This document shows positions 1-19,377 of a DNA stretch of 48,574 bases, in pieces (the first letter of the stretch is position 1; each line of letters starts with the position of its first letter). The position numbers were made by a program, and so were the translations under genes. The DNA comes from Propionibacteriaceae bacterium (GTDB lineage Bacteria > Actinomycetota > Actinomycetes > Propionibacteriales > Propionibacteriaceae): the NCBI GenBank assembly GCA_030537675.1, contig JAUNVL010000009.1:1-48574 (forward strand). The letters run 5' to 3'. A model generated the notes under the pieces. That model searched no databases and was not told where the DNA came from. It worked only from the letters and a program-made list of their open reading frames with translations.

Positions 1-911
1 CCGAGCATGATGAAGCCGAGCACCGCGAGCGACAGGAACAGGGACGGGAACAGCAGCATGTGGGGGGCCGCGGCGATGTAGCCGAGGCCTGAAGCCTCCG
101 AGATCGCGATGCCCCACGAGATGGCCGGGGGCTGCAGTCCGATGCCGAGGAACGACAGGGCGGCCTCCGTCGTGATGAACGCACCGAGGTCGATGGTGGC
201 GACGACGATGACAGGGGCCACAGCATTGGGCAGCACGTGGGACAGGATGATGCGCGCAGGACTTGCCCCCAGCGCACGGGCTGCCAGCACGTACTCGTTG
301 GGCTTGACCTGCAGCACGCTGGAGCGCATCAGGCGGAAGATGTTGGGCCAGTACAGGATGGCCATGGCAAAGACCACCTTGCCGACGATCAGCGAGTACG
401 GGGCACCGGGTGGCGAGCGGAACGTGTACATGATGATGATGCCGCCGAGCAGCAGCGGGATCGCGAAGAAGACATCCGCGATGCGCGACAGCAGCGCGTC
501 CACCCAGCCGCCGGAGTACCCGGCGATGATTCCCAGGGCGCCGCCGATGATCACGGTGGCGATCATGGTGAGCGTGCCCACGAGGATCGAGGAACGGGCG
601 CCGTAGATGGTGCGGGAATAGACGTCGCAGCCCTGCAGGTCGTAGCCGAACCATGCCCCCTTCTCCGGTCCGAGACGGGCGAGACTCAGATCGCAGTACC
701 CCGGGTCAGCGGAGGTGAACAGCTGTGGCGCCATCGCCATGGCGACGAAGATGGCGATCAGCGACGCGGAGAACCAGAACAGGGGGCGGGAGCGCATGAT
801 GCGCCACGCGTCGCTCCACAGCGACGCACCGGCCTCCTCCGGGGTGGCGACGGCGGGATCGACACCCTCGGTGTTGATCTCCTCGGGCCTGTTGATGTGC
901 ATGTCAGTCAT
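1..911 (-). CDS. ABC transporter permease, DppC/OppC type (partial, runs off left edge)
   Basis: Inner-membrane permease subunit of a peptide/nickel-type (family 5) importer. The frame is open from an ATG at 911 to the window edge (about 303 codons), so the C-terminus is missing. The N-terminus is a cytoplasmic tail rich in Glu/Pro, then a first membrane segment, then the OppC_N-type periplasmic stretch (GYDLQGCDVYSR, the LGTDxxGRD-like signature). The coupling-loop signature follows (EYVLAARALGAS, then HVLPNAVAP). The start overlaps the stop of the upstream permease by a few bases (ATGACTGA), so the two are translationally coupled. With 904-1827 it forms the heterodimeric channel for the binding protein at 1916-3571. 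ATPase subunits are not seen and may lie beyond the edge, or be shared with the second importer at 14829-17008. Substrate is inferred from context to be a glycan or glycopeptide. Confidence 0.9.
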   Translation of the reverse strand, partial: MTDMHINRPEEINTEGVDPAVATPEEAGASLWSDAWRIMRSRPLFWFSASLIAIFVAMAMAPQLFTSADPGYCDLSLARLGPEKGAWFGYDLQGCDVYSRTIYGARSSILVGTLTMIATVIIGGALGIIAGYSGGWVDALLSRIADVFFAIPLLLGGIIIMYTFRSPPGAPYSLIVGKVVFAMAILYWPNIFRLMRSSVLQVKPNEYVLAARALGASPARIILSHVLPNAVAPVIVVATIDLGAFITTEAALSFLGIGLQPPAISWGIAISEASGLGYIAAAPHMLLFPSLFLSLAVLGFIML

Positions 912-1827
912 TGGTGATCCTTGGGTCCAGGACGCCGTAGAGCAGGTCGACGAGCAGGTTGACCACGAGGTACACCACGACCAGCACGATGACAGCCCCG
1001 ACCACCGAGACACCGTCACGCTGGTTGATGGAGCGCCAGATGAAGAAGCCGACCCCGTTGATGTTGAAGATGCGCTCGGTGATGATGGCGCCGCCCATGA
1101 GCGCACCGACGCTGGCACCGATGTAGGTGACGACAGGGATCAACGAGTTCCGCAGCGCGTGGACGCCGACGGCTCGGCTCGGGGCCATGCCCTTCGACTT
1201 GGCGGTGCGCACGTAGTCGGAGCGCAGGTTCTCCACGAGGTTCGTGCGTGTCAGGCGTGCAACGTATGCCACCGACAGCGCGCCCAGGACGAAGCCGGGC
1301 ATGAGGAGTTGGTACCACGTTCCCTGCGTGGCGGTGACGGGGAACCATCCAAGTTTCAGGCCGAAGAGCATCTGCGCTGCTCCGCCGAGGACGAACACGG
1401 GGATGGAGATCAGCACGAGCGTGCTGATGGTCACGAAGTTGTCCACGAACTTGCCCTTGCGGATGCCCGCCAGTACGCCGGCGGTGATGCCGAAGATGAT
1501 GACCACCAGGATGGCGATGAACGTGAGTTTCAGCGTGGTGGGGTAGCGCAGGGCCAGTTCATCCACGACACGGTTGCCGTAGAAGTTGGTGCCCAGGTCA
1601 CCCTGGAGCAGTTTGCCGAGGTACAGGAAATAACGCACGAGCAGCGGCTCGTCGAGGTTGTACTCGGCACGGAATTTGGCGATGTACGCGGGTGAGCAGG
1701 GCCTCTCGCCGCAACGACCCTCTGCGGGGTCGCCCGGCAGGACGAACACCATCGTGAAGATCAGGAACGACGTGCCGATGATCACCGGGATCATCTGCAA
1801 CAGCCGTCTGATGATGTATTTGCCCAA
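904..1827 (-). CDS. ABC transporter permease, DppB/OppB type
   Basis: Membrane permease of 307 residues, normal length for DppB/OppB. The N-terminus (YIIRRLLQMIPVIIGTSFLI) is the typical first transmembrane helix with Arg-Arg-Leu-Leu, followed by FVLPGDPAE. The coupling loop (DYVRTAKSKGMA ... HALRNSLIPV) contacts the ATPase. A Cys pair (residues about 39-43, RCGERPC) sits in the first periplasmic region. The start is TTG at 1827, preceded by a GAGGG Shine-Dalgarno about nine bases upstream; no better in-frame ATG is close. It lies 88 bases downstream of the binding-protein stop, across a strong hairpin (1859-1889), so it is probably expressed at a lower level than the binding protein. Confidence 0.9.
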   Translation of the reverse strand: MGKYIIRRLLQMIPVIIGTSFLIFTMVFVLPGDPAEGRCGERPCSPAYIAKFRAEYNLDEPLLVRYFLYLGKLLQGDLGTNFYGNRVVDELALRYPTTLKLTFIAILVVIIFGITAGVLAGIRKGKFVDNFVTISTLVLISIPVFVLGGAAQMLFGLKLGWFPVTATQGTWYQLLMPGFVLGALSVAYVARLTRTNLVENLRSDYVRTAKSKGMAPSRAVGVHALRNSLIPVVTYIGASVGALMGGAIITERIFNINGVGFFIWRSINQRDGVSVVGAVIVLVVVYLVVNLLVDLLYGVLDPRITND

Positions 1828-1858
1828 TGGAGTTCACCCTCTCTGCTGGCCCGAAGAA

Positions 1859-1889
1859 TCGGCCCGCCGGAGAACCTCCGGCGGGCCGA
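1859..1889 (-). terminator. Stem-loop between binding protein and permease genes
   Basis: Perfect 14-bp inverted repeat (left arm TCGGCCCGCCGGAG, loop of three bases) 26 bases past the binding-protein stop. On the minus strand it is followed by TTCTTC, a weak T-rich tail. Most likely a partial terminator or mRNA-stabilising hairpin that lets the binding protein be made in excess over the permeases. Confidence 0.7.
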
Positions 1890-1915
1890 CCCAGTCGGTA
1901 ATGGTCAGTAACGAA

Positions 1916-3571
1916 TCACTTGACGGTGATGGAGGTGAGGTCCCATTGGCTGAACGGGTTCATCTTGACGTTGTCGACCTTGTCGGAGTAACCGTAAGGC
2001 GTCTCCTGGTACCACAGCGGCATGACCGGGAAATCCTTGGCAACCTGTGCCTCGGCCTCCTGGTACTTGGCGTTCGCCTCGTCGGCCGTCGGAGCAGCAT
2101 TGCCTTCCGCCATCAGCTTCATGAACTCCGGGCTGTCGTAGTCGGTGTCGTTCGACGATGAGCCAGTCGCGAAGAGGGGCGTCAGGAAGTTCTCGATGGA
2201 GGGGTAATCCATCTGCCAGCCGGTCCGGAACGAACCCATGAGCTCGCGGGCGCCGACCTGCTCCCTCAGCGTCTTGAAGTCCGGCGTCGCGTTGAGCTGG
2301 CAATCCATGCCCAGGTTGTTCTTCAACTGGTTGCACACGGCGTCGGCCCACAGCTTGTGCGCGCCATCAGCGTTGATCGAGATCTGGAAGATGCCGTCGT
2401 AGCCACCGGCCGCGTCGTACATCTTCTTCGCCTCTTCGGGGTTGAACACGCAGTCGTCGCCGCAGACATCCGCCTTGTAGCCGTCGACGACCGGGGAGAC
2501 CCAGCCGGTTGCGGGCGTGCGGGCGCCGTTGAAGATCTGGGTGGTGATCTGCTCGCGGTCCACGGCCATGGAGATGGCCTTGCGCATGTTGACGTCCTTG
2601 AGCTGCTCATCCTTCGGGGAGAAGGACAGCGTCTGGATGATGCCCGTCTCACGGGTGTCGCTGCGGCCGTCGAGAGACATCTTCCAGGCGTCGCCCACGA
2701 GCTGGTCGGCGGGGATCAGGTCCGTGAGATCGAGGTTGTTGGCCACGACGTCGTTGTAGGCGGCGTTCGGGTCGTTGTAGATGCGGAACGTGACCTTGTC
2801 GATGTTGGGCTTGTTCTCACCGGAGTAGTCGGCGAACTTCTCCATCACGACTTCGGTGGCGGTGTTCTCGATCACCTTGAAGGGACCGGCGCCGATGGGC
2901 ATCTTGCTGAACTCGTCCTTGTCCTCTGCAGCCAGGAAAGCGTCCGACTGCGGCATGAAGGCGGTGTACCCGAGGCGGACCGGGAGGTTCGAGACAGGCT
3001 CCGTGGTCTTGATGGTGAAGCTGTGGTCGTCGACGACGGCCAGCCCGCTCATCACGTCCACGGAGGGCTCGGTGGCGCACTCGGCATCGGGGCACTGCAC
3101 ATCTGCGAAACCTTCAATGGGTTCGAAGAAGTAGGCACTCTGCTGGCCGTGAGGACCGTAGGCCGCCCAGTTCCAGGCGTCCACGAAGTTCTTGGCCAGC
3201 ACTTCGGTGCCGTCCTGGAACATGTAGCCCTGCTTGATCGTCACGGTGAAGGTCTGGTTGTCGTCGGTATCGATGGACTCGGCAATGTCCATCTCCGGCT
3301 CGGCGGTGTCGACGTTGTAGTGGATCAGCTTGGACGAGAAGGCCTCGATGATGTTGCCACCACACACCTCGGTGGTGTTGGAGCCGATGAGGGAGTTCTC
3401 GGGGGTACAGCCGCGAACGGTGATCTCGCCGCCCGCCTTGGCTTCGCTCGACGTTGCATTGGTGTCACCGGGTACAGCAGTGGCACCGGGATCGGCGTCA
3501 CCACCACAGGCGGAGACGGCCAGCAGGGCAGCTCCAGCTGCCAGTGCCAGGAATCGGGATGGGGCTCGCAC
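1916..3571 (-). CDS. Family 5 extracellular solute-binding lipoprotein (importer 1)
   Basis: Substrate-binding lipoprotein (551 residues) of the peptide/nickel/oligosaccharide (SBP_bac_5) family, anchored outside the membrane. The chosen start is GTG at 3571 because AGGAG (3577-3581) stands five bases upstream; the longer frame to 3616 lacks a ribosome site. From this start there is a short basic N-terminus, a hydrophobic stretch and a lipobox LAVSAC with Cys22, followed by an acidic, Ala/Thr/Ser-rich linker. Family features include the KQGYMFQDGTEVLAKNFVDA block and the late DFPVMPLWYQET block. The gene sits 108 bases after the GH5-type gene, and its permeases follow. Family 5 proteins bind peptides but also chito- and cello-oligosaccharides; location beside GH38/GH5 genes suggests a mannose/GlcNAc-containing glycan or glycopeptide. 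That is inference. Confidence 0.9.
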   Translation of the reverse strand: MRAPSRFLALAAGAALLAVSACGGDADPGATAVPGDTNATSSEAKAGGEITVRGCTPENSLIGSNTTEVCGGNIIEAFSSKLIHYNVDTAEPEMDIAESIDTDDNQTFTVTIKQGYMFQDGTEVLAKNFVDAWNWAAYGPHGQQSAYFFEPIEGFADVQCPDAECATEPSVDVMSGLAVVDDHSFTIKTTEPVSNLPVRLGYTAFMPQSDAFLAAEDKDEFSKMPIGAGPFKVIENTATEVVMEKFADYSGENKPNIDKVTFRIYNDPNAAYNDVVANNLDLTDLIPADQLVGDAWKMSLDGRSDTRETGIIQTLSFSPKDEQLKDVNMRKAISMAVDREQITTQIFNGARTPATGWVSPVVDGYKADVCGDDCVFNPEEAKKMYDAAGGYDGIFQISINADGAHKLWADAVCNQLKNNLGMDCQLNATPDFKTLREQVGARELMGSFRTGWQMDYPSIENFLTPLFATGSSSNDTDYDSPEFMKLMAEGNAAPTADEANAKYQEAEAQVAKDFPVMPLWYQETPYGYSDKVDNVKMNPFSQWDLTSITVK

Positions 3572-3679
3572 GAGTACTCCTACAAGAGGGATGGGGCCGC
3601 GCGGATGGCGCAGCACTTGGATTGACTGGCTTGTTTATACCGCCTGCGGCACGAAAAGGACATTGACGCGGCCACGGGG
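3572..3679 (-). promoter_or_regulatory. Gap between GH5-type gene and binding protein; possible internal promoter
   Basis: The 108-base gap breaks the otherwise overlapping gene order. On the minus strand a TATAAA box (3634-3639) stands 55-60 bases upstream of the ribosome site of the binding protein; no convincing -35 is seen (TGTCCT at 17 bases spacing). No copy of the LacI-type operator was found here. The binding protein may therefore have its own promoter in addition to read-through from the GH38 promoter. Confidence 0.3.
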
Positions 3680-4900
3680 TTACGAAGTCGTTACCGATTC
3701 CATCTCTTTGTCCACCCGACGCAGGGAGCACACCTCGCCGCTGTTGAACCTGGACTGCCACTCATCGAACAACGGCCCCATGGGTCCGGTGCTGCTCCGT
3801 CCGACCCCCGTCTGCCAGTCCGCAGAGAACTCGAGGACCGGCACATCCCGCGGATCAGCTGCAGCCGGCACACCTGTGGCGCGCAGTTCGGGCATGCGTT
3901 CGGCCAGCAGCAGAGCTTCTGGTTTCGCGACGCCCTCCGAGGTGAAGAGCCCGAGCGAGTACTCCAGCGCCGGGAAATCCAGCAGGCTCCGGGACACGTC
4001 ATGGCTGCACCACCACGTGATGGCTTCCAGCCCGGGGGTGTCGACGACGGCGTCGAGCGTTGCCGACACGAAGTCGGCGGCTGACTCGTCGGTGACGTGG
4101 GTGCGTGGCGCACCCACCTCCTGCAACCAGAGGGGCCGCGACGGATCCGGACTCCACGCGCGCGCGACCTCCAGCAGATACCTGGGGAACGACGTGAGCG
4201 CCGGGTGGCCCTCCCCGTAGCGTGGTCCCACCTGGGCGAACACCCAGGAGTGCACTGTTGTGGAGGCGCCCCGCGTCACCGCGTGTCGGGGCGTGAAGGG
4301 GTGCGCGTCCACGAACCACAGGTCATCATCGAAGCCGTGGTGGTGCGCGCCGTCCGGCCACCCTGCCTCCAGGGGCGCGAGGATCCTGTCGAACCACACG
4401 TCGATGTCATCCGGGGTCGCCACGGACAGCGTCGGGTGCCGGTGCATGGGGCTCGGCCCCGCGAACTGCGCGAACTCGTTGCCCAACGTCATTCCGGTGA
4501 CGGCGGGGTGCCCGCACAGCACTGCCGCCAGGTGGGACACCAGCGCCGCTTCGCCGTCGAGCGCCACGGGGTCGGTGAAGAGGTTCTGCTGGTGCCACGT
4601 GGTGACCCAACTCGGCAGGAAGTCATAGCTGGAGAGGTGCCCGTTCAGGGCGTCGACGCTCACCCCCAGACCCGCGGCGGCGGCTGCGTCCACCACCGAA
4701 ATGACGTCGGCCACCGCGCGTGGTCTGATCAGCCCGCGGTTCGGCTGCAGCAGCGGCCACAGCGGAAAGATCCGGACGTGGTCCATGCCCAGCATCGCAA
4801 TCGCCTGGAAGTCCTCCTTCACGGCGTCCAGGTCGAGGTCCAGCCAGCTGTGGAACCATCCCACGCGGGGGGTGTAGTTGACGCCTATGCGCATGTTCAT
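3680..4900 (-). CDS. Glycoside hydrolase, GH5-like clan GH-A, probable beta-mannosidase
   Basis: Predicted cytoplasmic retaining glycosidase with a (beta/alpha)8 barrel (406 residues). It has no signal peptide: the protein starts directly with strand 1 (MRIGVNYTPRVGWFHSW). Clan GH-A catalytic residues are visible: acid/base Glu142 in TLGNEFAQF and nucleophile Glu261 in LWLQEVGAP. The WxxHD-type strand 8 (ITWWCSHD) follows. Length and layout resemble the GH5_18-type exo-beta-mannosidases that in bifidobacteria split Man-beta-1,4-GlcNAc, the N-glycan core disaccharide. The subfamily call is from memory of family style and needs a database search. The start ATG (4900) overlaps the GH38 stop as ATGA, so the two enzymes are coupled, which fits sequential removal of alpha- then beta-linked mannose. 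Alternatives are another GH5 exo-activity such as beta-glucosidase. Confidence 0.75.
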   Translation of the reverse strand: MNMRIGVNYTPRVGWFHSWLDLDLDAVKEDFQAIAMLGMDHVRIFPLWPLLQPNRGLIRPRAVADVISVVDAAAAAGLGVSVDALNGHLSSYDFLPSWVTTWHQQNLFTDPVALDGEAALVSHLAAVLCGHPAVTGMTLGNEFAQFAGPSPMHRHPTLSVATPDDIDVWFDRILAPLEAGWPDGAHHHGFDDDLWFVDAHPFTPRHAVTRGASTTVHSWVFAQVGPRYGEGHPALTSFPRYLLEVARAWSPDPSRPLWLQEVGAPRTHVTDESAADFVSATLDAVVDTPGLEAITWWCSHDVSRSLLDFPALEYSLGLFTSEGVAKPEALLLAERMPELRATGVPAAADPRDVPVLEFSADWQTGVGRSSTGPMGPLFDEWQSRFNSGEVCSLRRVDKEMESVTTS

Positions 4901-7900
4901 CGACCCAATCGAATTGTCGCGACCTGGAACGGCCGCAGGGCGACGCCGACGTGCCCGTCTGCCAGAGGTTCTGTGATGGCCGTTGCCCTGACCTGCTGCC
5001 TGGGGTTGCCGTCGGTGAGGGCATCCTCGAGGAGGTCCGTCTCCACCGCGGATGTGGCGAAGTCGGCGCCAAGCGAGGCGGTGGCTCGACGTCCGTAGGG
5101 CTCGTAGAGCCTGACGATGACGTCGCCGGAGGAATCCTCGGCAAGTTTGACGGCCTCCACCATGACGTCCCCGTCCACCGTGATGAGGGGGGCCACGGGG
5201 GAACCCGTCAGCGTGCGCAGCGGGATGTTGGCCGCGTAGCCGTCGGCCACCGCGTCCTCGATGGTCGCGCCCGGGCGGATGGTGAAGGAGAAGGTGTGTC
5301 GGCCCTCGTCCGTGCGTGGATCGGGGTACCTGGCTCCCTTCAGGAGCGACGCGCGGACGACGGTGTAGGTGCCGCCGCCGTCGCGGGCGTGCCGGGTGAC
5401 GTCCCAGCCGTAGGTCTGGGCGTTGGCCACGGCGATACCGAAGTCCGGCTCACCCACGTGAACCCATCGATGGGCGTGGACCTCGAACCGGTGGGCATCC
5501 CACGACGTGTTCGTGTGGGTGGCGCGCACCAGGTGGCCCATCTCGATCTCGAAGGCGGCGTGGTCGGTGTGCACGTCCATGGGCCAGGCCAGTTTCAGCA
5601 ACGAGTCCTGCTCGTGCCAGTCGACGTCCACCTCCACGTGCAACCGGGGATCCCCGGCCCGCAGCGTGAGCTTCTGATGGGCTGTGGAGCCTCCGAACTG
5701 GCGCTTCACCAGGACGCTGGCCTCGCCGTCGCCCTCGTGCAGTTCAGCCGTGCCGTCACTCAGGTCGGTGACGGTGTTGAAGGCGAACGGGTCGATGTCC
5801 CAGGCGTCCCACATGTTCGGGAAGTCGGGGTGCACCTGCAACAGGTTGCCCCGCGTCCCGGGAGGCAACGTTTCACGGCCCGTGGCCAGGTCCACCAGCG
5901 AGGTGATGAGTCCTGCCTCGTCGACCCGCAGCCTGAGCAGACCGTTGTCGAGCAGGATGCCGTCGAACGTGTCGACCTCGACGGGTCGCTCGCCCGCGAG
6001 TCTCTCGTCTCCGCCCATCGCCGGTGCACCACCCTGGGTCATCGGTGCGGCGTTGAAGGTGATGGAACGTGTGCCGTCGCCGGCCAGGAGAGACTGGGCG
6101 CGCGCGATGAGTGAGGTGAGTTCCTCGCTGATCCGCGCGTGTTCTGCCAGCACCTCTTCGTAGACCCACGCGATGCACGTGCCGGGGAGGATGTCGTGGA
6201 ACTGGAAGAGGCAGACGTCCCGCCACCACTGGCCGAAGCTCTCCAGCGGGTACTCCATCAGTTCGCGCACCGCGGCGGTGGCGCACCACAACTCTGCTTC
6301 GCGCAGGAGGTGCTCGTTGCGGCGGTTGCCGGCCTTGACATCGGCGACCGAGGTGAACGTGCCACGGTGGAGTTCGAGGTACAACTCCCCCACCCACACG
6401 CTGGGTGCTTCGTGCTCATCCTCCGCCCGGGCGAAGAAGGCCTGAGGTGGCTCGATCTGGACCCGTGGCGAACCCTCCAGGTCAGCGGTTCGTGCAGCCT
6501 GCATCAGCATTTCTCGCGTTGGTCCGCCGCCCCCGTCGCCGTAGCCGAAGGGGATCAGTGAGGTGGATGCGCGGCCCTTGTCCTGGAAGTTGGCAGCGGC
6601 GTGCGCGAGGTTGGTGCCGTTGAGGTCGGATCCATAGGTGTCTGCCGGCGGGAAGTGGGTGAAGATGCGAGTGCCGTCGATCCCCTCCCACCAGAAGGAG
6701 TGGTGGGGGAACTTGTTGACCTGGTTCCAGGAGATCTTCTGCGTGAGGAACCACTGGGCCCCTGCGAGCCGGGCGAGTTGTGGGAGGGCACCCGAGTAGC
6801 CGAAGGAGTCGGGCAACCACACCTCAGGGCAGTGGTGGCCGAACTTCTCGCGAAAGTAGCCCTGACCGTAGAGGAACTGGCGGCACATCGCCTCGCCGCC
6901 CGGAAGGTTGGCATCGGACTCCACCCACATGCCACCGACGGGAATGACGCGGCCGTCCGTCACTGCCTCACGGAGCCGCTCGAACAGGTCAGGATGGTCC
7001 TCCTCCAGCCACGCGAAGTGCTGTGCGGCGGGGAAGGCGAAGACGTGCTCCGGGTGTTCAGCAAGCAGGTTCAGCTGGTTGGCGACGGTGCGGGCGACCT
7101 TGCGCCTGGTCTCCCGCAGCGGCCACAGCCACGCCGAGTCGATGTGGGCGTGGCCGATGGCGGACAGCGTGTGGGCCGACGCCGCAGCGGGCCGCGACAG
7201 GACAGGTACCAGTTCCGCTCGGGCTGCTGCAGCGGTCGCGGGAACGTCGAACAGGTTGATGCGGTCCAGCGCCCGGTCCAGTGCCCGCCGGATCTCCCAG
7301 CGCCGCTCACTGCCTTCCGGCAGCTGGAACGCGAGTTGCGCAAGAGTGCGGATGTCCGCGCTGAGCTCTCGCACCTCCTGGTGCACCACGACGAGATCGG
7401 CCCGACGCAGCTCATAGATGGGCGCGGTGCCTGACGTGTGCTTGCGTCCGAGCTCGGTGGGGACGAACGCGGGGACGCCCAGCACCACGGGGTTGGCGGC
7501 CGCCTCGAGGTACACCTCGACGTTGCCCTCGGCATCGGGCTCGACGGGCAACCACTTGTTCCTGGGGTTGTGCCCCTTGATGATGGAGCCGTCGGCGCGG
7601 TAGGCCAGTCCTTCGCACTGGAACCCAGGCGAGTCGGCATCACCTCCGAGGTCGATGAAGAGTTCCAGGTGTTCATTCCCGTACTCCTGCGGCACGTGCG
7701 TGCGGAACCGCATCCATGTGGTGCCCCACGCCGGGCCCCAGGGTGCGCCAACGGTGAAGGGCTCGTAGGGCAGCGCCAGTCCCTCAGCGGGAGGAATCGG
7801 TTCACCCTGACCGACGACGCCCGCCGCGGCGCTCGACACACCGTCGTGCGCATCAGTCAGGGGAGCAACGGCCACGTCCAGTACAGCGATGACGGTCATT

Positions 7901-7971: not shown

Positions 7972-8039
7972 GACTGGACCTTCCAACGCTCATGGTCTTC
8001 TGGGAGCGAGTCAACCGCTCATGGGTTCCTGCACAGCAG

Positions 8040-10619: not shown

Positions 10620-13045
10620 TGTGCGGAAGCGCTGTGGTCATCCGGACGACGTCGTGATCCGGTGCCGCCCTTCTGCCACGGCTGGGCACCACCGACGCTG
10701 CGGTGGTTGATGCCGGCCGCGTCCCATCGCTTGCCCTGTTTGACGAGTCGAGCGAAGAAGTCCTCCTCGGACGCAACGGAACCGGCCCAGGCGATCTCTG
10801 CCAGTGCTGCTGCCCTGGGGAAGGCCATGTATTCCACATGCTGGGCCGTCGGCATGTACTCCGTCCACAACTGGGCCTGGACACCCAGGAGCCGCCCTGG
10901 ACCGTCCCCGACGCCGAGTTTCGGGTCATAGCCCAGGACGGTCTGCCAAGAAGTAAAGGCACCGATGGCGTACGGCTCCTCGTCATGCTCCGACTGGTAC
11001 TGGTCCAGGTAGGTGAAGTGCCACGTGGCCATCACGGCGTCGTTGCCCCGTTTGACAGCTTCGCCGCCCGGGGAGTACCCGCGCCAGGACATGATGACCG
11101 TGCCCTCGGCATCGTGGTCCTCCATCACCTCGTCCCATGCGACGGCCACCCGGCCACGCTCAGCCAACCAGGCCCTCAGGTGATCGGTGAACCAGTTCTG
11201 CAGCTTGTGCGGTCCCTCAAGGCCGTACTCCTGCGCCAGCGCCGCCGCGGCTTCGCTCTGAACCCACTGCGTGGTGGGGCACTCGTCGCCTCCCACGTGG
11301 ACGAAGCGGGACGGGAAGACCTCCAGGAGCTGGGCGAAGATCTCCTCCACCATCGCCATGGTTTCGCTGGTCGGGTGCAGCACCTCGTCGAACACACCGA
11401 ACGTCGTGGCCACGGGCTTGAGTTCCGTCTCGGATGGTTCGCCGTACTGCGGGTAGGCAGCAAGGAGGGCACGCACGTGCCCGGGAAGATCAATTTCCGG
11501 CACGATCGTGACACCCCGCCTCTCGGCATAGGCAACGAGTGCGCGGAGCTGGTCCTGCGTGTAGTACCCGCCGTGTGGGTGTCCGTCGTGCTCGGCCCAC
11601 GCCGGCGCGTGCGTGTCCGTGCGCCAACCACCCTTGCGGACGAGCTCCGGGAAGCCGACCACGTCGAAGCGCCATCCCTGGTCGTCCGTGAGGTGCAGGT
11701 GCAGCGTGTTGAGTTTCAGCGCGGCCAGTTGATCAATGAACCGGTAGAGGAACGGCAATGGCTGGAAGTGGCGAGCGACGTCGAGCATGATGCCCCGCCA
11801 GGTGAACCGGGGGGCATCCTCGATGGCGACGTGCGGAACGTCGATGCTCGCCGCTGGCAGCGGTGCCGGGCCGGCGCTCCACTCGGGAAGCAGCTGACGC
11901 AGCGTGTGGGCGCCGGCAAGGCATCCGTCGAGATCAACGCAGTTCAACTCGATACCGTCAGCGTCAACACGGAGACGGTATCCGCCGGTGGGGACTGACT
12001 CGTCGTCGGTGGTGATGCGCAGCATCGCGTTGTCCCCTGCGCTCAGGTTCAGACCGCTGCCGGGGCCGATGGCGTCCAGGACAGCGCCGATGGCGTCCGG
12101 GGTACCGGATACCGCCACGGTCCGGGGCAGTCTGAGGGTTCCCTCCCCCACCGTGACCGACGACGGGCTGGGGATGAGACCGAGACTGTTCACCCTGTCG
12201 GCTCCGGCAGTCAGCGCCGCGTGCACCCGGTCGATCCACTCCCAGGGCGCAGCCTCACCACCAGGCAGGGCGCGGAAATACTCCCAGATGTCGGCGCCCC
12301 CGATGGTGGGATGGGCCATGGCGATCTCGGTGAGGGTGGCGCACTGACGATCGATGTCGACGTAGCCGTTCGCGTCCTCGGGGTGGGCTGACATGCCCAG
12401 CACCAGCTTGTCGACGGGGTAGACGCCGCGGTCGATGACGCGCTGGACGTCCCGCGTGTCCTCCATGCTGCCGAAGCCGCTGTAGAACTGGATCTGGACC
12501 CAGTCGATCTCGTCACCACGCTGCCGGTACAGCTCCTCGTAGTCGAAACCCGAGAGGTTGGCGCCGCCCCACATTGCCGAGGCGACCGGGGCGAGGATGA
12601 TGGCGAACTCACTGCCGAAGTCTGCACGGAGTGCGTCCATCAGAGTGATGACGCCCTCCAGGCTCATGTCCTGCTCGACGTCGATGTCGATGCCCTGCAG
12701 CTTGTGCTCCCGGAGGAAATCGCGCAGAGCAGGGTAGTGGATGTCGAATTCGTCCCCGTCGAGTTTGCACATGGTTCCTGGTGCCCACCCGCCCACCATG
12801 ACCATCACCGGAACACCACGCTCCTGCACCATGGCCACCTCGGACCACAACTGGTCGTGGTAGGGGTCATCATGCGGATGGTCGTTGAGGACGATTGTCG
12901 AATCCTCTTCGATGTGAACGGCGGCCACGATCAGGTGCGTGAGGTTTCCGCTGTCGATCATCGGCGCGAGGGGAACGAACGTTGATCCGTGGCCGTGGAA
13001 CTGGTGGTAGACGACAACCCGGGGGGTGGCGGTGTGCACGATCAT
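10616..13045 (-). CDS. Two-domain glycosidase: GH18 (endo-beta-N-acetylglucosaminidase-like) fused to GH20
   Basis: The N-terminal about 290 residues form a GH18 barrel with the catalytic motif GIDIDVEQ (Asp130, Asp132, Glu134 counted from an ATG at 13075), IQFYSGFG and a late ADIWEYF. The rest is a complete GH20 unit: DAPRFTWRGIMLDVARHF, LHLHLTDDQGWRF and the Asp597-Glu598 pair in FVHVGGDE, ending with VQAQLWTEYMPT. The GH18-then-GH20 order is that of EndoE of Enterococcus faecalis, which removes N-glycans from IgG, but here no signal peptide is visible, so the enzyme appears cytoplasmic. The start is uncertain. AGAAGG lies upstream of both ATG 13045 and GTG 13039; ATG 13075 has no ribosome site. 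It follows a terminator-like hairpin after the binding-protein gene. Probable job: splitting the chitobiose core and then removing GlcNAc. Confidence 0.85.
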   Translation of the reverse strand: MIVHTATPRVVVYHQFHGHGSTFVPLAPMIDSGNLTHLIVAAVHIEEDSTIVLNDHPHDDPYHDQLWSEVAMVQERGVPVMVMVGGWAPGTMCKLDGDEFDIHYPALRDFLREHKLQGIDIDVEQDMSLEGVITLMDALRADFGSEFAIILAPVASAMWGGANLSGFDYEELYRQRGDEIDWVQIQFYSGFGSMEDTRDVQRVIDRGVYPVDKLVLGMSAHPEDANGYVDIDRQCATLTEIAMAHPTIGGADIWEYFRALPGGEAAPWEWIDRVHAALTAGADRVNSLGLIPSPSSVTVGEGTLRLPRTVAVSGTPDAIGAVLDAIGPGSGLNLSAGDNAMLRITTDDESVPTGGYRLRVDADGIELNCVDLDGCLAGAHTLRQLLPEWSAGPAPLPAASIDVPHVAIEDAPRFTWRGIMLDVARHFQPLPFLYRFIDQLAALKLNTLHLHLTDDQGWRFDVVGFPELVRKGGWRTDTHAPAWAEHDGHPHGGYYTQDQLRALVAYAERRGVTIVPEIDLPGHVRALLAAYPQYGEPSETELKPVATTFGVFDEVLHPTSETMAMVEEIFAQLLEVFPSRFVHVGGDECPTTQWVQSEAAAALAQEYGLEGPHKLQNWFTDHLRAWLAERGRVAVAWDEVMEDHDAEGTVIMSWRGYSPGGEAVKRGNDAVMATWHFTYLDQYQSEHDEEPYAIGAFTSWQTVLGYDPKLGVGDGPGRLLGVQAQLWTEYMPTAQHVEYMAFPRAAALAEIAWAGSVASEEDFFARLVKQGKRWDAAGINHRSVGGAQPWQKGGTGSRRRPDDHSASAQ

Positions 13046-13099
13046 GATCCTTCTGGTGGGGGAGGTTGAGGCCATGAGGATGGAGGCCGATGACTCAGT

Positions 13100-13150
13100 A
13101 CGGCAGAAAAGGAAAAGGCGGGGCGGCGGTTCGTTGAAACCGCCGCCCCG
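13100..13150 (-). terminator. Intrinsic terminator-like hairpin after binding protein 2
   Basis: A 13-bp perfect stem (CGGGGCGGCGGTT at 13119-13131 with its complement at 13138-13150) with a six-base loop, followed on the minus strand by CCTTTTCCTTTTC. It lies 14 bases past the binding-protein stop and before the GH18-GH20 gene. It probably reduces read-through into the enzyme genes so the lipoprotein is the most abundant product. Confidence 0.75.
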
Positions 13151-13164: not shown

Positions 13165-14832
13165 TCAGGATGCTGGTTCCAGCATCATGAACGTGTCGAT
13201 GGCGTTGTTGAGGTTGGTTGCGCTCGGGATGTACTTCGCTGTGCCGGGCTCGGGGAACCCGGTCCACTTTCGGCTCGACCACAGGATGGGCGTCGTGTTC
13301 GTCATGGCAGGGATGAACGGTGCTTCCTCGGCGATGGCTTTCTGCATTTCCTGTGCCAACGGCGTGACCGAGTCGAGGTCGTCCACCTTGATCGACGACA
13401 GTGCCTTCGTGTCGGTGAACATCGTCTCGTTCGCCCAGCGACCGTAGTTGCCGTAGATCACGTCGTCGCCGATCTCCTTGAGGTTGCTCTTGGAGAACTG
13501 TGCGTAGGCCTGGTAGTAGTTGCCGTTGGAGATGCCGCCGGAGGCGAACATGGCGTAGTTGCCCAACGTCGACTCCTTGTTGAACACCTGGGTGGGGGTG
13601 GGCATCCATCCCACCGTCAGGCCGAGGTTCTTCTTCCACTGGTCAGCGAACACCTGGCCGAGCTGCATCCAGATGGCGTTGCCGTTGTCGATGCGGAGTT
13701 CGAGCGGGTAGGTTTTCCCGTCCTTCTCCAGATTGCCCTCGGCATCGATGGTGTAGCCCGCGTCCTCGAGTTCCTTCTTCGCGCCGTCAACATCCGCGAC
13801 GAGCGGCTCGGCGAACTCCGGGAGGAGGGTGTTCTTGTAGACCACGGTGTCCAGTCCAACGACTGAGGGCACAGTGAATCCGACGCCTGCGAGGTCCGCA
13901 CCTGCCTGGAGGTCCAGCGAATCACGCAGTGCGCGGCGCACGGCCGCGTCATCGAACGGTGCGATGGTGGTGTTGAAGGTGATGATCTGGCTTCCACCTC
14001 CGGGGTAGACCGAGAAGTGGTTGTTCTCCTCGTCCTTCTGGACGAAGTCCTGCATCACGCCTGGGGCAGCCGCTTCGACGAAGTCCAGTTCGCCTCGACC
14101 CAGCTGTGCCTGCACGCCACCGATGGGGCCCATGGGAATGAAACGGACTTCCTTGACTCCGTTGCCCTTGCCCCCCCAGTAGTCGTCGCGGATCTCGTAG
14201 ACCATCTGTTGCGGCTGGAAGTTCTTGAGGGTGAACGGGCCGGTGCCGACGGGCTCCTCATTGATGTCGGTCTTGCGGTCCCGCTCCTCCCAGATGTGCG
14301 CCGGGTAGATCGGGTAGTACATGGAGTAGTTGGCGATCTGCTGGAACTCCGGGCTGTGGAAGTAGATCTTGGCCGTGTACTTGTCCGTTGCCTCGGGCGG
14401 CTTGGAAGCCCAGCACTTGTCGGGGTCGTCGCAGGCATCGCCGTTGACGAAGCCGTAGGTGTAGACGAAGTCGTCGGCGGTCATCTCGACACCGTCGCTC
14501 CACATCACACCCTCGCGGAGGTGGAAGACCATGGTGTTGCCGTCGTCCTCCATCTCGAAGCTCTCGGCGAGCCTCGGGACGAGCTTGCCGGGATCGGTCG
14601 GGTCAAGGATGAAGGGGGATTCGTACACCAGTGCAAGGCCGGGTGCTGTCCCGGCCTCGTTGGCGCCGTACCAGTTGAAGTTCTCGGGGTACACGGGGCC
14701 GGCGGCGGCGACGGTGACGATACCGTCGCTGGCGTCCTTCTTGCCTGCGCCACCTCCTGAACAGCCGGACAGCACCAGCGCTGCGGCCATCATCGTCACG
14801 GCGACTTTGCCGGTGAGCCTTCTTTTCCTCAT
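13165..14832 (-). CDS. Family 5 extracellular solute-binding lipoprotein (importer 2)
   Basis: Binding lipoprotein (555 residues) of the SBP_bac_5 family. The signal peptide is basic (MRKRRLTGK), then hydrophobic, with lipobox LVLSGC and Cys24, followed by a Gly-rich, Lys/Asp linker. Family blocks include FHLREGVMWSDGVEMTADDF and KYTAKIYFHSPEF. An ATGA overlap with the upstream ATPase gene and a GAGGAAAGG ribosome site support the start. It differs clearly in sequence from the importer-1 binding protein, so the two importers probably take different glycan forms. It is the fifth gene of a complete transporter operon, and the next genes downstream are two intracellular hexosaminidases, which points to a GlcNAc-containing oligosaccharide. 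Confidence 0.92.
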   Translation of the reverse strand: MRKRRLTGKVAVTMMAAALVLSGCSGGGAGKKDASDGIVTVAAAGPVYPENFNWYGANEAGTAPGLALVYESPFILDPTDPGKLVPRLAESFEMEDDGNTMVFHLREGVMWSDGVEMTADDFVYTYGFVNGDACDDPDKCWASKPPEATDKYTAKIYFHSPEFQQIANYSMYYPIYPAHIWEERDRKTDINEEPVGTGPFTLKNFQPQQMVYEIRDDYWGGKGNGVKEVRFIPMGPIGGVQAQLGRGELDFVEAAAPGVMQDFVQKDEENNHFSVYPGGGSQIITFNTTIAPFDDAAVRRALRDSLDLQAGADLAGVGFTVPSVVGLDTVVYKNTLLPEFAEPLVADVDGAKKELEDAGYTIDAEGNLEKDGKTYPLELRIDNGNAIWMQLGQVFADQWKKNLGLTVGWMPTPTQVFNKESTLGNYAMFASGGISNGNYYQAYAQFSKSNLKEIGDDVIYGNYGRWANETMFTDTKALSSIKVDDLDSVTPLAQEMQKAIAEEAPFIPAMTNTTPILWSSRKWTGFPEPGTAKYIPSATNLNNAIDTFMMLEPAS

Positions 14833-15929
14833 GCGGATTCCTTTCCTCGGGGGGAGATGGAGACGGATTGACGCGATGTTGTGAGGTGGCCGACGGCGTC
14901 AGCATCCTCGTGCGGTTCGAAGAGCCAGCAGGCCACCTTGTGGTTGGGCAGGCTGGGTTCGGGGGCGAGCAGAGTGGGTTGTTGGACTGAGCAGATGGGC
15001 ATCGCGAACGGGCACCTCGGTGCGAACCGGCACCCGGGAGCTTCGATCGAAACGTCCACGGGTTCCGCGTCATCGACTGAGATGTTGGCGGCGTCTGAAC
15101 CCTTGTAGCGGGCCGGGTCGGGCGCAGAGGCGATCAGCAGTTGGGTGTAGGGGTGCTTGGCTGCGCCGATGATGTCCTCGGTGGGCCCCACCTCGGCGAT
15201 CCTGCCGCCGTACATGACGGTGATGTCGTCGCTCAGGTAGCGCGCGCTGGCGATGTCGTGCGTGATGTAGAGCAGGGCCACACCATCGGTGTCGCGCAGT
15301 GACCGGAACAGGTTGAGCACTTCCAGGCGGATGGAGGCGTCAAGCATGGACGTCGGCTCATCTGCGAGCAGGACCGACGGTTCCACCGCCAGTGCGCGCG
15401 CCAGCGCGACTCGCTGCTTCTGTCCGCCGGAGAGCGCCGTGGGGTAGCTCTTGATGTAGCGCTCAGGAGGGGTCAGGTTCACCTTGGCCAGGAGTTCTCC
15501 GACCTTCTGGGCGGTGTCGGCTCTCGATGTGGACTTGTGATGGATCCGTAACGGTCGCGACAGGATGTGTTGCAGGGTTTTGACCGTGTTGAGCGAAGCG
15601 AACGGGTCCTGGAAGATGAGTTGGACCTTGCTGTAGTACTCGCGGAGCCGACGCCCCTTGTTCGGTGCTGGCTTGCCGTCGAAGACCACCTCTCCGGAAG
15701 TCTGGATGTACATGCGGGCAAAAATGCGGGCCATGGTGGTCTTGCCGGAGCCTGACTCCCCCACCAGCGCCATGATCTGCCCCGCGTAGAGGGTGAAGTC
15801 GACGTGGTCAATGGCCTTGATGGTGGTACGCAACCCCGCCCTTGAGCGACCCTCGAAGTACATGCACACGTCTCGAGCCTCGAGAATGGGCTTGCGTCCC
15901 GCAGTCTCGTCCCTCGGCTGGGTGGTCAT
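14829..15929 (-). CDS. ABC transporter ATP-binding protein, DppF/OppF type
   Basis: Cytoplasmic ATPase subunit (366 residues) of importer 2. Walker A is GESGSGKTT, the signature LSGGQKQRVALARA, Walker B VLLADEPTS, and the switch His lies in LLYITHD. The C-terminal oligopeptide-transporter domain with its Cys-rich segment (PGCRFAPRCPFAMPIC) is present, as in Dpp/Opp ATPases that hold a regulatory iron-sulfur or metal site. The start ATG at 15929 has AAAGGA upstream and overlaps the preceding ATPase stop; its own stop overlaps the binding-protein start (ATGA). Confidence 0.93.
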   Translation of the reverse strand: MTTQPRDETAGRKPILEARDVCMYFEGRSRAGLRTTIKAIDHVDFTLYAGQIMALVGESGSGKTTMARIFARMYIQTSGEVVFDGKPAPNKGRRLREYYSKVQLIFQDPFASLNTVKTLQHILSRPLRIHHKSTSRADTAQKVGELLAKVNLTPPERYIKSYPTALSGGQKQRVALARALAVEPSVLLADEPTSMLDASIRLEVLNLFRSLRDTDGVALLYITHDIASARYLSDDITVMYGGRIAEVGPTEDIIGAAKHPYTQLLIASAPDPARYKGSDAANISVDDAEPVDVSIEAPGCRFAPRCPFAMPICSVQQPTLLAPEPSLPNHKVACWLFEPHEDADAVGHLTTSRQSVSISPRGKESA

Positions 15930-17008
15930 GGGAGTTCCTTTGCTGCCGGGGTTGCCTCATCCTTCGGGGACAACGGATGGATGCACGCAACATGGCCGGT
16001 TCCCCTCGGGAGAAGCGGAGGAAAGGCTGTGAGGCACTCCGCCGTCGCGCGAGAGCACCGTGGGGCGAACGAGCAACCGGGCGGCAGGTCCAGCAGGTTG
16101 GGCGGCGTACCGGCGATGCCGGAGATTCTGCGCACAGGCTCTCTCAGCGGCGGGAACGCATTGCGCAAACCCTGGGTGTAGGGATGCTGGGGTGCCCGGT
16201 ACAACTGTGCGGCGCTACCGATCTCGACGATCCGGCCGGCGTACATGATGGCGATCCGGTCAGAGATCTCCAGCAGGAGTGAGAGGTCATGCGTCACGAA
16301 CATGATCGCGAAACCCCGCTCCTCCTGCAATGCCATCACCTGGCTCAGGATCTTGCGCTGCATCACGACGTCGACTGCCGTGGTGGGCTCATCCATCACG
16401 ATCAGTTCGGGGTCGCTGGCCATCGCGAGCGCGATCAGCGAGCGTTGCCGCATCCCACCGGAGAGTTGGTGCGGGAAGGAGTTCACGTTGTGCCCGGCGA
16501 TGCCCACCAGGTCCAGGAGGCCGGCGGCCTTGTCGAGCGCATCCTTCTTGGACATCCCACGGTTCTTCAGCTGCAGCACGTCTGTGAACTGTGCCCCCAG
16601 CCGCATGACGGGGTTGAGCGCAGCCATGGCGCTCTGCATGACGATGGACACGTCCGACCACCGCAGCGGCATGAGTGCCTTCTCGCTGAGCTTGACCAGG
16701 TCGACGGGAGCACTCTTGTCCGACGGGTGGTAGATCACGGACCCGTTGCTCGTGACGGCGGGCACCCGTTGCAGACGGGTGATCGCTGTCAGCAGCGTGG
16801 ATTTACCACAGGCGGACTCCCCCGCGATACCGAGGATCTCCCCCCGGTGCAGCGTCAGGTTCACGTCCTCACACGCGGGAACCGCGCCCGCCTCCGTGAG
16901 GTACCGCACAGCCAGATGCTTCACCTCCAGCAGCGGTGGGCGCCGCTGGATGGCGGAGGCTGAATCCTCCAGTGGGGCCGTGTTGGTCTCTGCGTTGATG
17001 GTGCTCAT
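15926..17008 (-). CDS. ABC transporter ATP-binding protein, DppD/OppD type
   Basis: Second ATPase of importer 2 (360 residues). Walker A GESACGKST, signature LSGGMRQRSLIALA, Walker B LIVMDEPTT, switch His in MFVTHD; the C-terminal oligo_HPY-type block (LPPGCSFAPRCSRATAEC) is present. The start is ATG at 17008, with GGAAG seven bases upstream and an ATGA overlap with the upstream permease stop; the frame continues to 17182 but that part lies inside the permease gene. It pairs with the DppF-type subunit to drive import. Confidence 0.93.
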   Translation of the reverse strand: MSTINAETNTAPLEDSASAIQRRPPLLEVKHLAVRYLTEAGAVPACEDVNLTLHRGEILGIAGESACGKSTLLTAITRLQRVPAVTSNGSVIYHPSDKSAPVDLVKLSEKALMPLRWSDVSIVMQSAMAALNPVMRLGAQFTDVLQLKNRGMSKKDALDKAAGLLDLVGIAGHNVNSFPHQLSGGMRQRSLIALAMASDPELIVMDEPTTAVDVVMQRKILSQVMALQEERGFAIMFVTHDLSLLLEISDRIAIMYAGRIVEIGSAAQLYRAPQHPYTQGLRNAFPPLREPVRRISGIAGTPPNLLDLPPGCSFAPRCSRATAECLTAFPPLLPRGTGHVACIHPLSPKDEATPAAKELP

Positions 17009-17916
17009 GCCGCCGCTTCCTGCTTCGCCTTGCGGGTCATCATCTTGTTGAATTTCCGCACCATGGTCTGCTGACGCGAGTTGAGTGCGGGGTTCACGAC
17101 CTCGTCGATGCCGAAGTTGATGAGGGTCGTCGCGGTGCCGAGCAGCGCGATGCTCAACCCGGGTGGCAGGAACCACCACCACATTCCCCTGAACAGGGCG
17201 TTCTGGCCCTCTGCGTAGTAGATCTCCGTTCCCCAGCTGATGGTCTCGGGATCACCGATGCCGAGGAAAGCCATGGAAGCCTGCGCAAACACCCCGTACA
17301 CGAAGGCGGTGAGGAACATCGACGAGGCAACACCGTTGAGGTGTGGGGAAACCTCGCTCAGGATGATGCGCCAAGGCCGTTCGCCCGTCACCCTGAGTGC
17401 CGCCGTGAAGTCCCGGCCCCGAAGCGACATGGCCTGCGCGCGAATCCGGCGTGCGCCGCCGGGCCATTCGAAGAAACCGATGATGAAGGAGATGGCCAGC
17501 CAGTCGAGCTTCTTGACGTAGCCCGCGATGATGAGTGTGACGGCAAAGCTGGGCATGGTCAGGAACAGGTTGATGATGGTGTTGAGGATGCGGTCCGATA
17601 TGCCACCGAGGAATCCTGCCCAGGTGCCGATGACCACGGACATGACCGTGGCGATCACACCGGAAGCGAGGCCGACAAGCAGCGAACCCCTGGCTCCGTA
17701 CACGATGCGCGCCAGGACGTCCTGACCGCTGGAGGTGACGCCCAACCAGTGCTGGACGGAGGGTGGTTGTCCCGCGCTCTCAATGTAGAGCTCAGTGGGC
17801 GACAGGCCCAGGACGCTCGTGACGAACACCGGGCCGATGGTGCTCATGAGGACGAAGAACAGAAGTATGCCGACGCCAATCCTGACGGTTGGCAGTCTCA
17901 GAGTGCGTTTCCACAT
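17005..17916 (-). CDS. ABC transporter permease, DppC/OppC type (importer 2)
   Basis: Membrane permease (303 residues). A first transmembrane helix (GVGILLFFVLMSTIGPVFV) is followed by LGVTSSGQDVLARIVYGARG, the LGTDxxGRD-like signature of OppC proteins, then five further hydrophobic segments. The coupling loop is present (AQAMSLRGRDFTAALRVTG). The C-terminal cytoplasmic tail is Lys/Arg rich. GAGG precedes the ATG by five bases, and the gap to the upstream permease is seven bases. Confidence 0.92.
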   Translation of the reverse strand: MWKRTLRLPTVRIGVGILLFFVLMSTIGPVFVTSVLGLSPTELYIESAGQPPSVQHWLGVTSSGQDVLARIVYGARGSLLVGLASGVIATVMSVVIGTWAGFLGGISDRILNTIINLFLTMPSFAVTLIIAGYVKKLDWLAISFIIGFFEWPGGARRIRAQAMSLRGRDFTAALRVTGERPWRIILSEVSPHLNGVASSMFLTAFVYGVFAQASMAFLGIGDPETISWGTEIYYAEGQNALFRGMWWWFLPPGLSIALLGTATTLINFGIDEVVNPALNSRQQTMVRKFNKMMTRKAKQEAAA

Positions 17917-17923
17917 GTCAGCC

Positions 17924-19027
17924 TCACTGTTCCCTGGTGCGCGGATCGAGCCACAAATACAGCGTGTCCGCGATGAAGTTGGCGACGAGCGTCAGGGCGA
18001 TGGTCATCAGCAGGATGGCCTGCATCACCGGGTAGTCACGTTGCCCGATGGCCTCACCCAGAAGCTGACCCATGCCGGGGTAGACGAAGACGGATTCGAC
18101 GAGCACGATCGATCCGAGAAGACCGCCGATGGCTTGCGCCAGTCCTGTGACGTTGGGGAGCATGGCGTTGCGTGCGGCGTAGCGAAGCATCACATTTCTC
18201 GGCAGGAGACCCTTGGCACGCGCGAGGGTCACGTAGTCCTCGTTGGCCGTGGTGATCATCATGTTCCTCATGCCGAACAGCCAGCCGGCGAATCCCACGA
18301 CCACCAGCACGAGTGCGGGGAGGAATCCGTGGTGGATGACGCTCCAGACGTACTCGGGATTGGTGATCGTCTGGGGCGAGATATTGGGATCGAATCCGCC
18401 CTGCGGTGGGAAGTAGTAGTTCTCGTAGGCGAAGTACCAGACCGCGATGAGCCCCAGCCAGAAAGCCGGGATGGAGTGGAAGAACATCAGCAGCGGCGTG
18501 AGCGTCTTGTCTGCGGCGCTGCTCGGCTTCCAGCCCAGCCATGTTCCGAAGAACGTCCCCACCACCCAGGCGATGAGGACGGTGATCAGCGCGAGCCCGA
18601 GTGTCCACGGCAGCGTCTGGCCGATCAGTTCGATGACGGGGGTGGGGTACTTCATGACGGAAAGACCGAGGTCTCCCCGCGACAGTTGCAACAGGTAGTT
18701 GAAGAACTGACCGATCAACGGCTCGTTCGGGTCTCCGTAGAGCGCCCTCATGTTGTCGATGATGTACTGCGACGGCGGCCTGCCCTGCGAGACGGTGATG
18801 CGGCGGATCATGTCGTTGACCGGATCGCCCGGCATCAACCGTGGCAGGAAGAAGTTCAACACCACTGCGGCCGTGGCGGTCAGGGCGTAGATGCCCAGGC
18901 GTTTACCCAGATACACGAGCAGAGGAGCGTTGATGCGGTTGCGGAGACCACCGGGTTTCTCGGTTTTTTTGGGGAGGACGTCAACCCCTCCGGGCCCAGC
19001 AGTCGGGTCGATTCCAGATTCGATCAC
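17924..19027 (-). CDS. ABC transporter permease, DppB/OppB type (importer 2)
   Basis: First gene of the importer-2 operon, 367 residues. The start is GTG at 19027, because CTCCT (19033-19037; AGGAG on the minus strand) is five bases upstream; longer frames to 19045 or 19159 lack a ribosome site and the latter reaches into the operator region. A Gly/Pro-rich cytoplasmic tail of about 40 residues precedes the first helix (IYALTATAAVVLNFFLPRLM) and PGDPVND, the usual OppB opening. DYVTLARAKGLL ... YAARNAMLPN is the ATPase-coupling loop. The tail makes it longer than typical 310-340 residue DppB proteins. Operator copy 2 lies 145 bases upstream. Confidence 0.9.
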   Translation of the reverse strand: MIESGIDPTAGPGGVDVLPKKTEKPGGLRNRINAPLLVYLGKRLGIYALTATAAVVLNFFLPRLMPGDPVNDMIRRITVSQGRPPSQYIIDNMRALYGDPNEPLIGQFFNYLLQLSRGDLGLSVMKYPTPVIELIGQTLPWTLGLALITVLIAWVVGTFFGTWLGWKPSSAADKTLTPLLMFFHSIPAFWLGLIAVWYFAYENYYFPPQGGFDPNISPQTITNPEYVWSVIHHGFLPALVLVVVGFAGWLFGMRNMMITTANEDYVTLARAKGLLPRNVMLRYAARNAMLPNVTGLAQAIGGLLGSIVLVESVFVYPGMGQLLGEAIGQRDYPVMQAILLMTIALTLVANFIADTLYLWLDPRTREQ

Positions 19028-19171
19028 GTCATCTCCTCTACTCATCGTTGAGCGATATGCAGAGTAGAGCACAGGTGGGGGCCTGCGTTGTCCGACTGGG
19101 GAGGAAAGGCACCACCCGACGTTGGTCGTGCCCCAGGCCATCAGGTCTGGACTGTCCATCCTCAGCAGGCG

Positions 19172-19185
19172 CTAATCCGCTTTAG
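19172..19185. promoter_or_regulatory. LacI-type operator copy 2 (importer-2 operon)
   Basis: CTAATCCGCTTTAG, 13 of 14 bases identical to the site at 8043-8056. It lies in the 390-base gap upstream of the importer-2 operon, just downstream of a possible promoter, where bound repressor would block initiation. Confidence 0.75.
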
Positions 19186-19192
19186 TGATGAC

Positions 19193-19220
19193 TTTAAACG
19201 GATGGGGACCACTTGCGCAA
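19193..19220 (-). promoter_or_regulatory. Candidate promoter of importer-2 operon
   Basis: On the minus strand TTGCGC (19215-19220), 16 bases, TTTAAA (19193-19198). Transcription would begin close to the operator at 19172-19185. A better -35 match, TTGACA (19226-19231), exists upstream but has no -10 at proper distance. The choice is uncertain. The rest of the 19028-19418 gap shows no gene. Confidence 0.35.
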
Positions 19221-19377
19221 GCATTTGTCAACACTCACACGAGCTGACGTCGATCCGCCATCGCTGAACCGCCATTCGTCTGCGGCGGTCGCACAAAATT
19301 AGCGGGGTGGTGACACGTAACTCCGGGTGCAACGGACGCTCAGAGAGCCCGAACGATCACGGAGATGTTCGCCACGC

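Follow-up and report, generated by a model that had tools for sequence, protein, structure and literature searches.

N-glycan gene clusters of Bifidobacterium longum combine enzymes of families GH38 and GH5_18, and the same two enzyme types are found, with importer and endo-β-N-acetylglucosaminidase (ENGase) types that differ from those of B. longum, in the predicted N-glycan catabolic cluster that is the subject of this report. The cluster lies on the 48,574 bp contig JAUNVL010000009.1 of a Tessaracoccus-like Propionibacteriaceae bacterium (assembly GCA_030537675.1, a 93% complete draft of 3.06 Mb that is split into 213 contigs), and this entire contig (C106) is called the window below. The kind of locus is already known from the skin bacterium Cutibacterium acnes: according to the available parts of Reichenbach 2018 (PMC6160142), "locus 1" of strain 266 contains GH38, GH5_18, GH20 and EndoT-like GH18 genes whose products lack secretion signals, alongside a regulator and ABC transporter genes, and the authors proposed that C. 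acnes breaks N-glycans down in the cytoplasm, with a cytoplasmic GH18; in the same parts T. bendigoensis appears only in the GH5_18 tree. The EndoD/NgtS/CPL system of Streptococcus pneumoniae, as far as the accessible text of PMC5215778 describes it, resembles the window in its ABC import of glycans, its cytoplasmic GH38 and the GH20 in its locus, but its ENGase (GH85) acts outside the cell and its importer binds products with one N-acetylglucosamine (GlcNAc1), which is unlike the window. Judged from literature listings, these two papers and that on EndoE (PMC8894350, below) are the ones relevant to the fusion, operator or locus described here.

How closely does the window follow the C. acnes plan? 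Relatives were counted among 197 genomes of the family in 29 genera (G000 is the window's genome, G180 T. caeni, G186 T. bendigoensis, G119 T. massiliensis and G083 C. acnes), and a named genome collection was searched separately. The C. acnes genome encodes a GH5_18 protein identical over 408 residues to solved chain 6gvb, and its gene order is LacI, GH38, GH5_18, a weakly matching GH20 (opposite strand), oppB, oppC, oppD, oppF, a substrate-binding protein (SBP) and GH18. Its permeases and ATPases are 48 to 58% identical to those of the window, its SBP (also SBP_bac_5) 38% and its GH18 54%. The window thus fits the C. acnes locus in having adjacent GH38 and GH5_18 genes without secretion signals, a GH20, a GH18, the same type of importer (Opp2) and a LacI regulator; it differs in that the C. 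acnes GH18 stands alone and the C. acnes GH20 belongs to a different type with a weak Pfam match, whereas the window has a GH18-GH20 fusion and an additional GH20. The view of the sequence-only reading that no such locus had been described is wrong in view of locus 1 (PMC6160142, available parts) and of the same Opp-type importer in the C. acnes genome; what the window adds is the fusion and a candidate operator before both operons, and the likely cytoplasmic endo step with its importer also remains noteworthy. We read the genes collected in Table 1 as a cluster for N-glycan catabolism whose two operons, one for an importer predicted to take up glycans with the chitobiose core and one for the mannosidases, are probably governed by a single LacI-type repressor, and we put the probability of this reading at about three in four.

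All genes named in the sequence-only reading are open reading frames where it had placed them, and its family assignments stand for GH38, GH20, GH18-GH20, LacI and the two SBP_bac_5 proteins (Pfam) and for the GH5-like protein (solved relatives); its allotment of two importers to the system does not (below). The top solved match of the GH38 protein is the α-mannosidase 7ufs (E 2.9e-243), which we take to be from B. longum, and the motifs HAHIDSAW at 279 and LPDSFGYS at 391 are intact. Neither Pfam nor NCBIfam recognises the GH5 protein, and its subfamily comes from solved relatives: 6gvb, the N-glycan exo-β-mannosidase of C. acnes, matches residues 3-384 at E 5e-170, followed by ScGH5_18, BlGH5_18 and BlMan5B; of the top nine solved sequences, all but one carry the name GH5_18, BlMan5B or exo-β-1,4-mannosidase. 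GNEF at 140 and LQEVG at 259, which presumably hold the catalytic Glu residues, are kept. By these relatives the protein is GH5_18, a predicted exo-β-mannosidase, so that it falls within a mannosidase subfamily as had been supposed; its C. acnes counterpart splits Man-GlcNAc (PMC6160142, available parts). GH5_18 relatives were counted in 32 genomes, a total to which G195 contributes fragments and G033, G063, G122 and G171 four weak matches with E between 1e-10 and 8e-4.

Signal peptides were sought with a heuristic of hydropathy and lipobox from the listed starts. Both SBPs carry lipoboxes, and the GH38, GH5_18, GH20 and GH18-GH20 proteins have no convincing signal peptide by this heuristic, in agreement with the earlier claim for the four enzymes; nor do the GH18-GH20 fusions of T. 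caeni and T. bendigoensis have one. Residues 32-43 of the GH38 protein are hydrophobic with a score of 2.43, near those of the SBP signal peptides (2.48 and 2.54), and we judge this stretch to be part of the GH38 fold because it contains an Asp and a similar stretch is present in the T. bendigoensis relative. With a GH5_18 whose characterised relatives act on N-glycans, a GH38 and a GH18 near a solved α-mannosidase and EndoT, and no convincing signal peptides, the prediction that N-glycans are catabolised in the cytoplasm has good support.

The GH18 half of the fusion is most like 4ac1, the EndoT of Hypocrea jecorina (E 3e-66), and nearly as like 2y8v, which is named a class III chitinase (E 4e-64); the remaining three of the five chains that match it at E ≤ 0.1 do so at 3e-6 or worse (among them 6k7z at 3e-6 and 3ebv at 0.02). 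It aligns with EndoT over residues 18-284, the equivalents of both catalytic acids, D129 and E131, lying in its intact DIDVE motif (130-134); GGDE is intact at 595 in the fusion and at 289 in the separate GH20. EndoT acts on high-mannose N-glycans, reportedly without a part in chitin degradation, and according to the available text it is a fungal protein found in the medium that has no GH20, whereas the window's GH18 is fused to GH20 and has no signal peptide (PMC3408457). Among the matches listed, full-length GH18-GH20 relatives occur in the window's genome, T. caeni and T. bendigoensis (at least 3 of the 197 genomes); the search with the GH18 domain by itself has a full listing, of 8 genomes. 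Pfam confirms the architecture in T. caeni and T. bendigoensis, and in the named genome collection these two species supplied the two loci, of 14, that carry the fusion, so that by these counts it is a rare architecture. The EndoE authors stated in 2022 that to their knowledge EndoE of Enterococcus faecalis is the sole carbohydrate-active enzyme with both GH18 and GH20 domains (PMC8894350, available parts). EndoE, as described there, likewise joins a GH18 ENGase and a GH20 hexosaminidase that act in concert on N-glycans, but it is secreted and its domains are linked by two helical bundles, whereas no signal peptide was detected on the window's fusion. EndoE (7puk) does not figure among the five solved matches of the window's GH18 half at E ≤ 0.1, so that the window's fusion likely arose in a separate event, independently of EndoE. 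In addition, a GH18 of the window's type is fused to a GH29 α-fucosidase in G002 (L075:2204-4393), which hints at core-fucosylated glycans (fucose-specific GH18 ENGases have been described; PMC5762919, available parts), and in T. caeni a GH92 α-mannosidase gene lies between the fusion gene and GH5_18 (L081:3500-6643).

Operon 9159-19159 joins the two GH20-containing genes to a family-5 importer of predicted oligosaccharide type. The closest solved sequences to its binding protein, SBP2, are chitin-oligosaccharide and mannoside binding proteins, and Foldseek ranks 1 to 15 for the SBP2 model are chito- or manno-oligosaccharide binders, these ranks being repeats of a few proteins. An Asp of the peptide-binding protein DppA is kept in 0 of 20 SBP2-type rows, as against 16 of 16 rows of the type of SBP1 (the binding protein at the left end, below). 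Relatives of the GH18 (cut-off E 1e-15) are present in 8 of the 197 genomes and those of SBP2 (E 1e-60) in 11, with 7 genomes in common where 0.45 would be expected (P 1.3e-9 on the assumption of independent genomes, which does not hold, since the seven come from four genera). In five of the seven the two genes lie within 6 kb on one contig, and separate contigs carry them in T. caeni and G002. Import of glycans with the chitobiose core, as had been suggested, is thus supported indirectly, by an EndoT-like GH18 without a signal peptide that co-occurs with a binding protein of chito-/manno-oligosaccharide type. An exclusive link between Opp2 and N-glycans was considered and rejected, since the nearest importer overall, in G037, adjoins a ROK gene and has none of the enzymes beside it.

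What probably ties the two operons together is a palindrome. Its motif, CTAAWCCGSWTTAG, was drawn from four sites: the GH38-LacI gaps of the window and T. bendigoensis, a site beside the T. bendigoensis fusion and the site before oppB2. With up to two mismatches it occurs in the window only at 8043-8056 and 19172-19185; these give 4 strand-matches against a shuffle mean of 0.28 (1 of 100 shuffles reached 4), a comparison that is circular because the motif stems from these places. When no more than one mismatch is allowed, six genomes contain 15 distinct sites (27 strand-hits, the reversed control giving 9), and by our reading 13 of the 15, or 9 of 11 when the four motif-defining sites are left out, stand beside N-glycan enzyme or importer genes. 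No N-glycan gene was seen beside C. acnes site 1050983 and the T. bendigoensis site on C104, which were counted as misses. In the window's own genome the counts (3 and 3, against 2 and 2 for the control) are such that the places of the sites, and not their number, are informative. LacI relatives adjoin GH38-GH5_18 in other genomes, and six of eight fetched LacI loci have the palindrome (two of the six were used to draw the motif) as against none in ten resamplings; the LacI loci of G084 and G094 lack it. When GH5_18 loci with 1.5 kb flanks were scanned it was present in 1 of 27, a figure that we use neither way since most flanks end inside GH38, short of the GH38-LacI gap. The N-glycan region of T. 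bendigoensis has three sites, one of them before its importer. The palindrome is likely the LacI operator that joins both operons.

If this is correct, the cluster would work as follows: SBP2 and OppBCDF would import high-mannose or trimmed glycans with a reducing-end GlcNAc-GlcNAc, the GH18 half of the fusion would cut between the two GlcNAc residues of the chitobiose core, its GH20 half and the separate GH20 would remove antennary or chitobiose GlcNAc, GH38 would strip α-mannose, GH5_18 would split the final Man-β-1,4-GlcNAc, and the imported glycan or a product of it would relieve LacI at both predicted operators.

Might the importer operon instead take up chito- or manno-oligosaccharides and merely adjoin the mannosidase operon, its GH18 and GH20s degrading chitin fragments? 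The solved relatives of SBP2 and the chitinase name of 2y8v would suit such a role, as would the Opp2 relatives without GH18 in G037 and two genomes, G164 and G168, in which LacI, importer and GH18 stand together without a GH5_18 match. However, EndoT is nearest to the GH18 half and the other chitinases are far from it, one type of palindrome precedes both window operons and recurs at the three T. bendigoensis places, and the C. acnes importer and GH18 sit within the GH38-GH5_18 locus, so we consider this explanation rather improbable. A second possibility is that the importer carries N-glycopeptides or glyco-asparagine in place of free glycans, with the endo step still inside the cell. Its membership of the family-5 (Opp) peptide-transporter family, an ENGase without signal peptide that would leave GlcNAc-Asn or GlcNAc-peptide, and an M81/MlrC peptidase gene in the T. 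bendigoensis cluster all agree with this; against it, the DppA Asp is missing from every SBP2-type row, no M81/MlrC-like peptidase was noticed among the genes of the window's cluster, and a search of the own genome for aspartylglucosaminidase, through which a glyco-asparagine route would run, found none. This we regard as unlikely.

The sequence-only reading had both importers serve glycans. SBP1 lies directly downstream of GH5_18 on the same strand; its top solved match is DppA (E 8e-89), its relatives (E 1e-150 or better) are widespread (70 of 197 genomes, 17 of 29 genera) and show no association with GH5_18 (14 shared genomes, 11.4 expected), and it stands beside GH5_18 in the window only, the other 13 shared genomes having the two on different contigs (7) or separated by about 190 kb or more of the same contig (6). 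A second glycan importer co-operonic with GH38-GH5_18, which would be compatible with the rest of the cluster reading and could be reached by read-through (the gap from GH5_18 to SBP1 yielded neither terminator-like nor promoter-like sites), is very unlikely given this DppA likeness, the conserved Asp and the never-repeated adjacency, and SBP1-oppB1-oppC1 is judged to be a DppA-type peptide transporter outside the glycan system, to which only Opp2 belongs.

The cluster reading itself must be widened beyond the window. A third palindrome in the own genome (one mismatch) is on contig C53 (L116) at 5354, between a sulfatase and a CUT1 sugar SBP, in a unit (L116 104-9685) that comprises GH85, the sulfatase (whose frame runs into masked or unknown bases), the CUT1 SBP, two permeases and a LacI paralogue (46%). 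The GH85 protein, the only one found in this genome, has a signal peptide by the same heuristic. The CUT1 SBP is 59% identical to one that adjoins LacI-GH38-GH5_18 in a genome of the C. acnes genus group (G035), so that the CUT1 importer is next to LacI-GH38 there and on another contig here. With a secreted protein of an ENGase family and a second sugar importer predicted elsewhere in the genome, the system is larger than the window and not purely intracellular, and the earlier description of it as complete and intracellular is not confirmed. The C53 unit (with its operator near-match) would serve glycans cut outside the cell, and it is closer than the window to the S. pneumoniae N-glycan system (PMC5215778, accessible text). 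There may be two N-glycan routes under one type of LacI operator, one cut outside (secreted GH85 and CUT1) and one cut inside (a dedicated Opp importer for glycans with the intact chitobiose core and a cytoplasmic bifunctional GH18-GH20), with an independent second origin of GH18-GH20, a picture that we hold to have even chances.

In T. bendigoensis GH85, GH29, GH38, GH5_18, the GH18-GH20 fusion and an Opp2-like importer are gathered in the region with the three palindromes. Its expanded cluster at L079 5262-13551 contains a GH85 without signal peptide, GH18-GH20, the M81/MlrC peptidase and GH29; T. massiliensis encodes a secreted GH85-GH20 protein of 1952 aa that includes an F5/8 C domain and whose gene is preceded by two palindrome sites (L083:1248-7106). 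Prokaryotic ENGases commonly act outside the cell, according to the available part of a review (PMC10154615). A GH18-GH20 protein without signal peptide, with its own importer and candidate operator, makes it directly testable whether the chitobiose is cut inside or outside; the palindrome together with GH18 and Opp2 offers a marker for finding N-glycan regulons in Propionibacteriaceae, and the fusion is a candidate GH18-GH20 tool enzyme.

Table 1. Positions of the predicted glycan cluster and neighbouring features in the window.
Feature	Position	Strand	Remarks
OppC-type permease of peptide transporter (oppC1)	3..920	-	cut by contig end
Permease of peptide transporter (oppB1)	904..1827	-	not part of glycan system
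SBP1, DppA-type peptide SBP	1916..3616	-	probable start near 3571; judged to lie outside glycan system
GH5_18, predicted exo-β-1,4-mannosidase	3680..4900	-	overlaps GH38 by 4 bases; solved relatives
GH38 α-mannosidase	4897..7986	-	1029 aa from TTG 7986, or ATG 7971; Pfam GH38 N, middle and C domains
Predicted LacI operator CTAATCCGGTTTAG	8043..8056	.	between GH38 and LacI
LacI-family regulator	8057..9199	+	Pfam LacI helix-turn-helix; true start likely GTG near 8123
GH20 β-N-acetylhexosaminidase	9159..10619	-	Pfam; overlaps fusion gene by 4 bases
GH18-GH20 fusion, predicted ENGase and β-hexosaminidase	10616..13075	-	Pfam; GH18 half like 4ac1
Stem-loop, 14 pairs and T-rich tail	13119..13150	-	separates SBP2 from the fusion gene; may be a partial terminator
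SBP2, lipoprotein, predicted oligosaccharide-binding family-5 SBP (SBP_bac_5)	13165..14832	-	solved matches, model and fold search
oppF2, OppF-type ATPase	14829..15929	-	
oppD2, OppD-type ATPase	15926..17008	-	listed frame begins at 17182
oppC2, OppC-type permease	17005..17916	-	Pfam BPD_transp_1
oppB2, OppB-type permease	17924..19159	-	Pfam BPD_transp_1; start likely ATG near 19045
Predicted LacI operator CTAATCCGCTTTAG	19172..19185	.	upstream of importer operon

The contig end at base 1 falls inside a permease gene, so the left transporter unit is cut. Besides the GH38/GH5_18 and GH18-GH20/GH20 pairs of Table 1, overlaps of 4 bases join SBP2/oppF2, oppF2/oppD2 and oppD2/oppC2; the 3′ ends of LacI and GH20, on opposite strands, overlap by 41 bases at 9159-9199. 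The promoter scan found no promoter-like site in the region (2.1 expected), and the terminator scan found 7 terminator-like sites, no more than the 7.9 expected by chance. Because of the stem-loop at 13119-13150 the enzymes may be expressed at a lower level than SBP2. Farther to the right, at 33329-34555, a gene of the GlcNAc 2-epimerase (AGE) family, possibly a mannose isomerase, adjoins genes of branched-chain amino acid synthesis.

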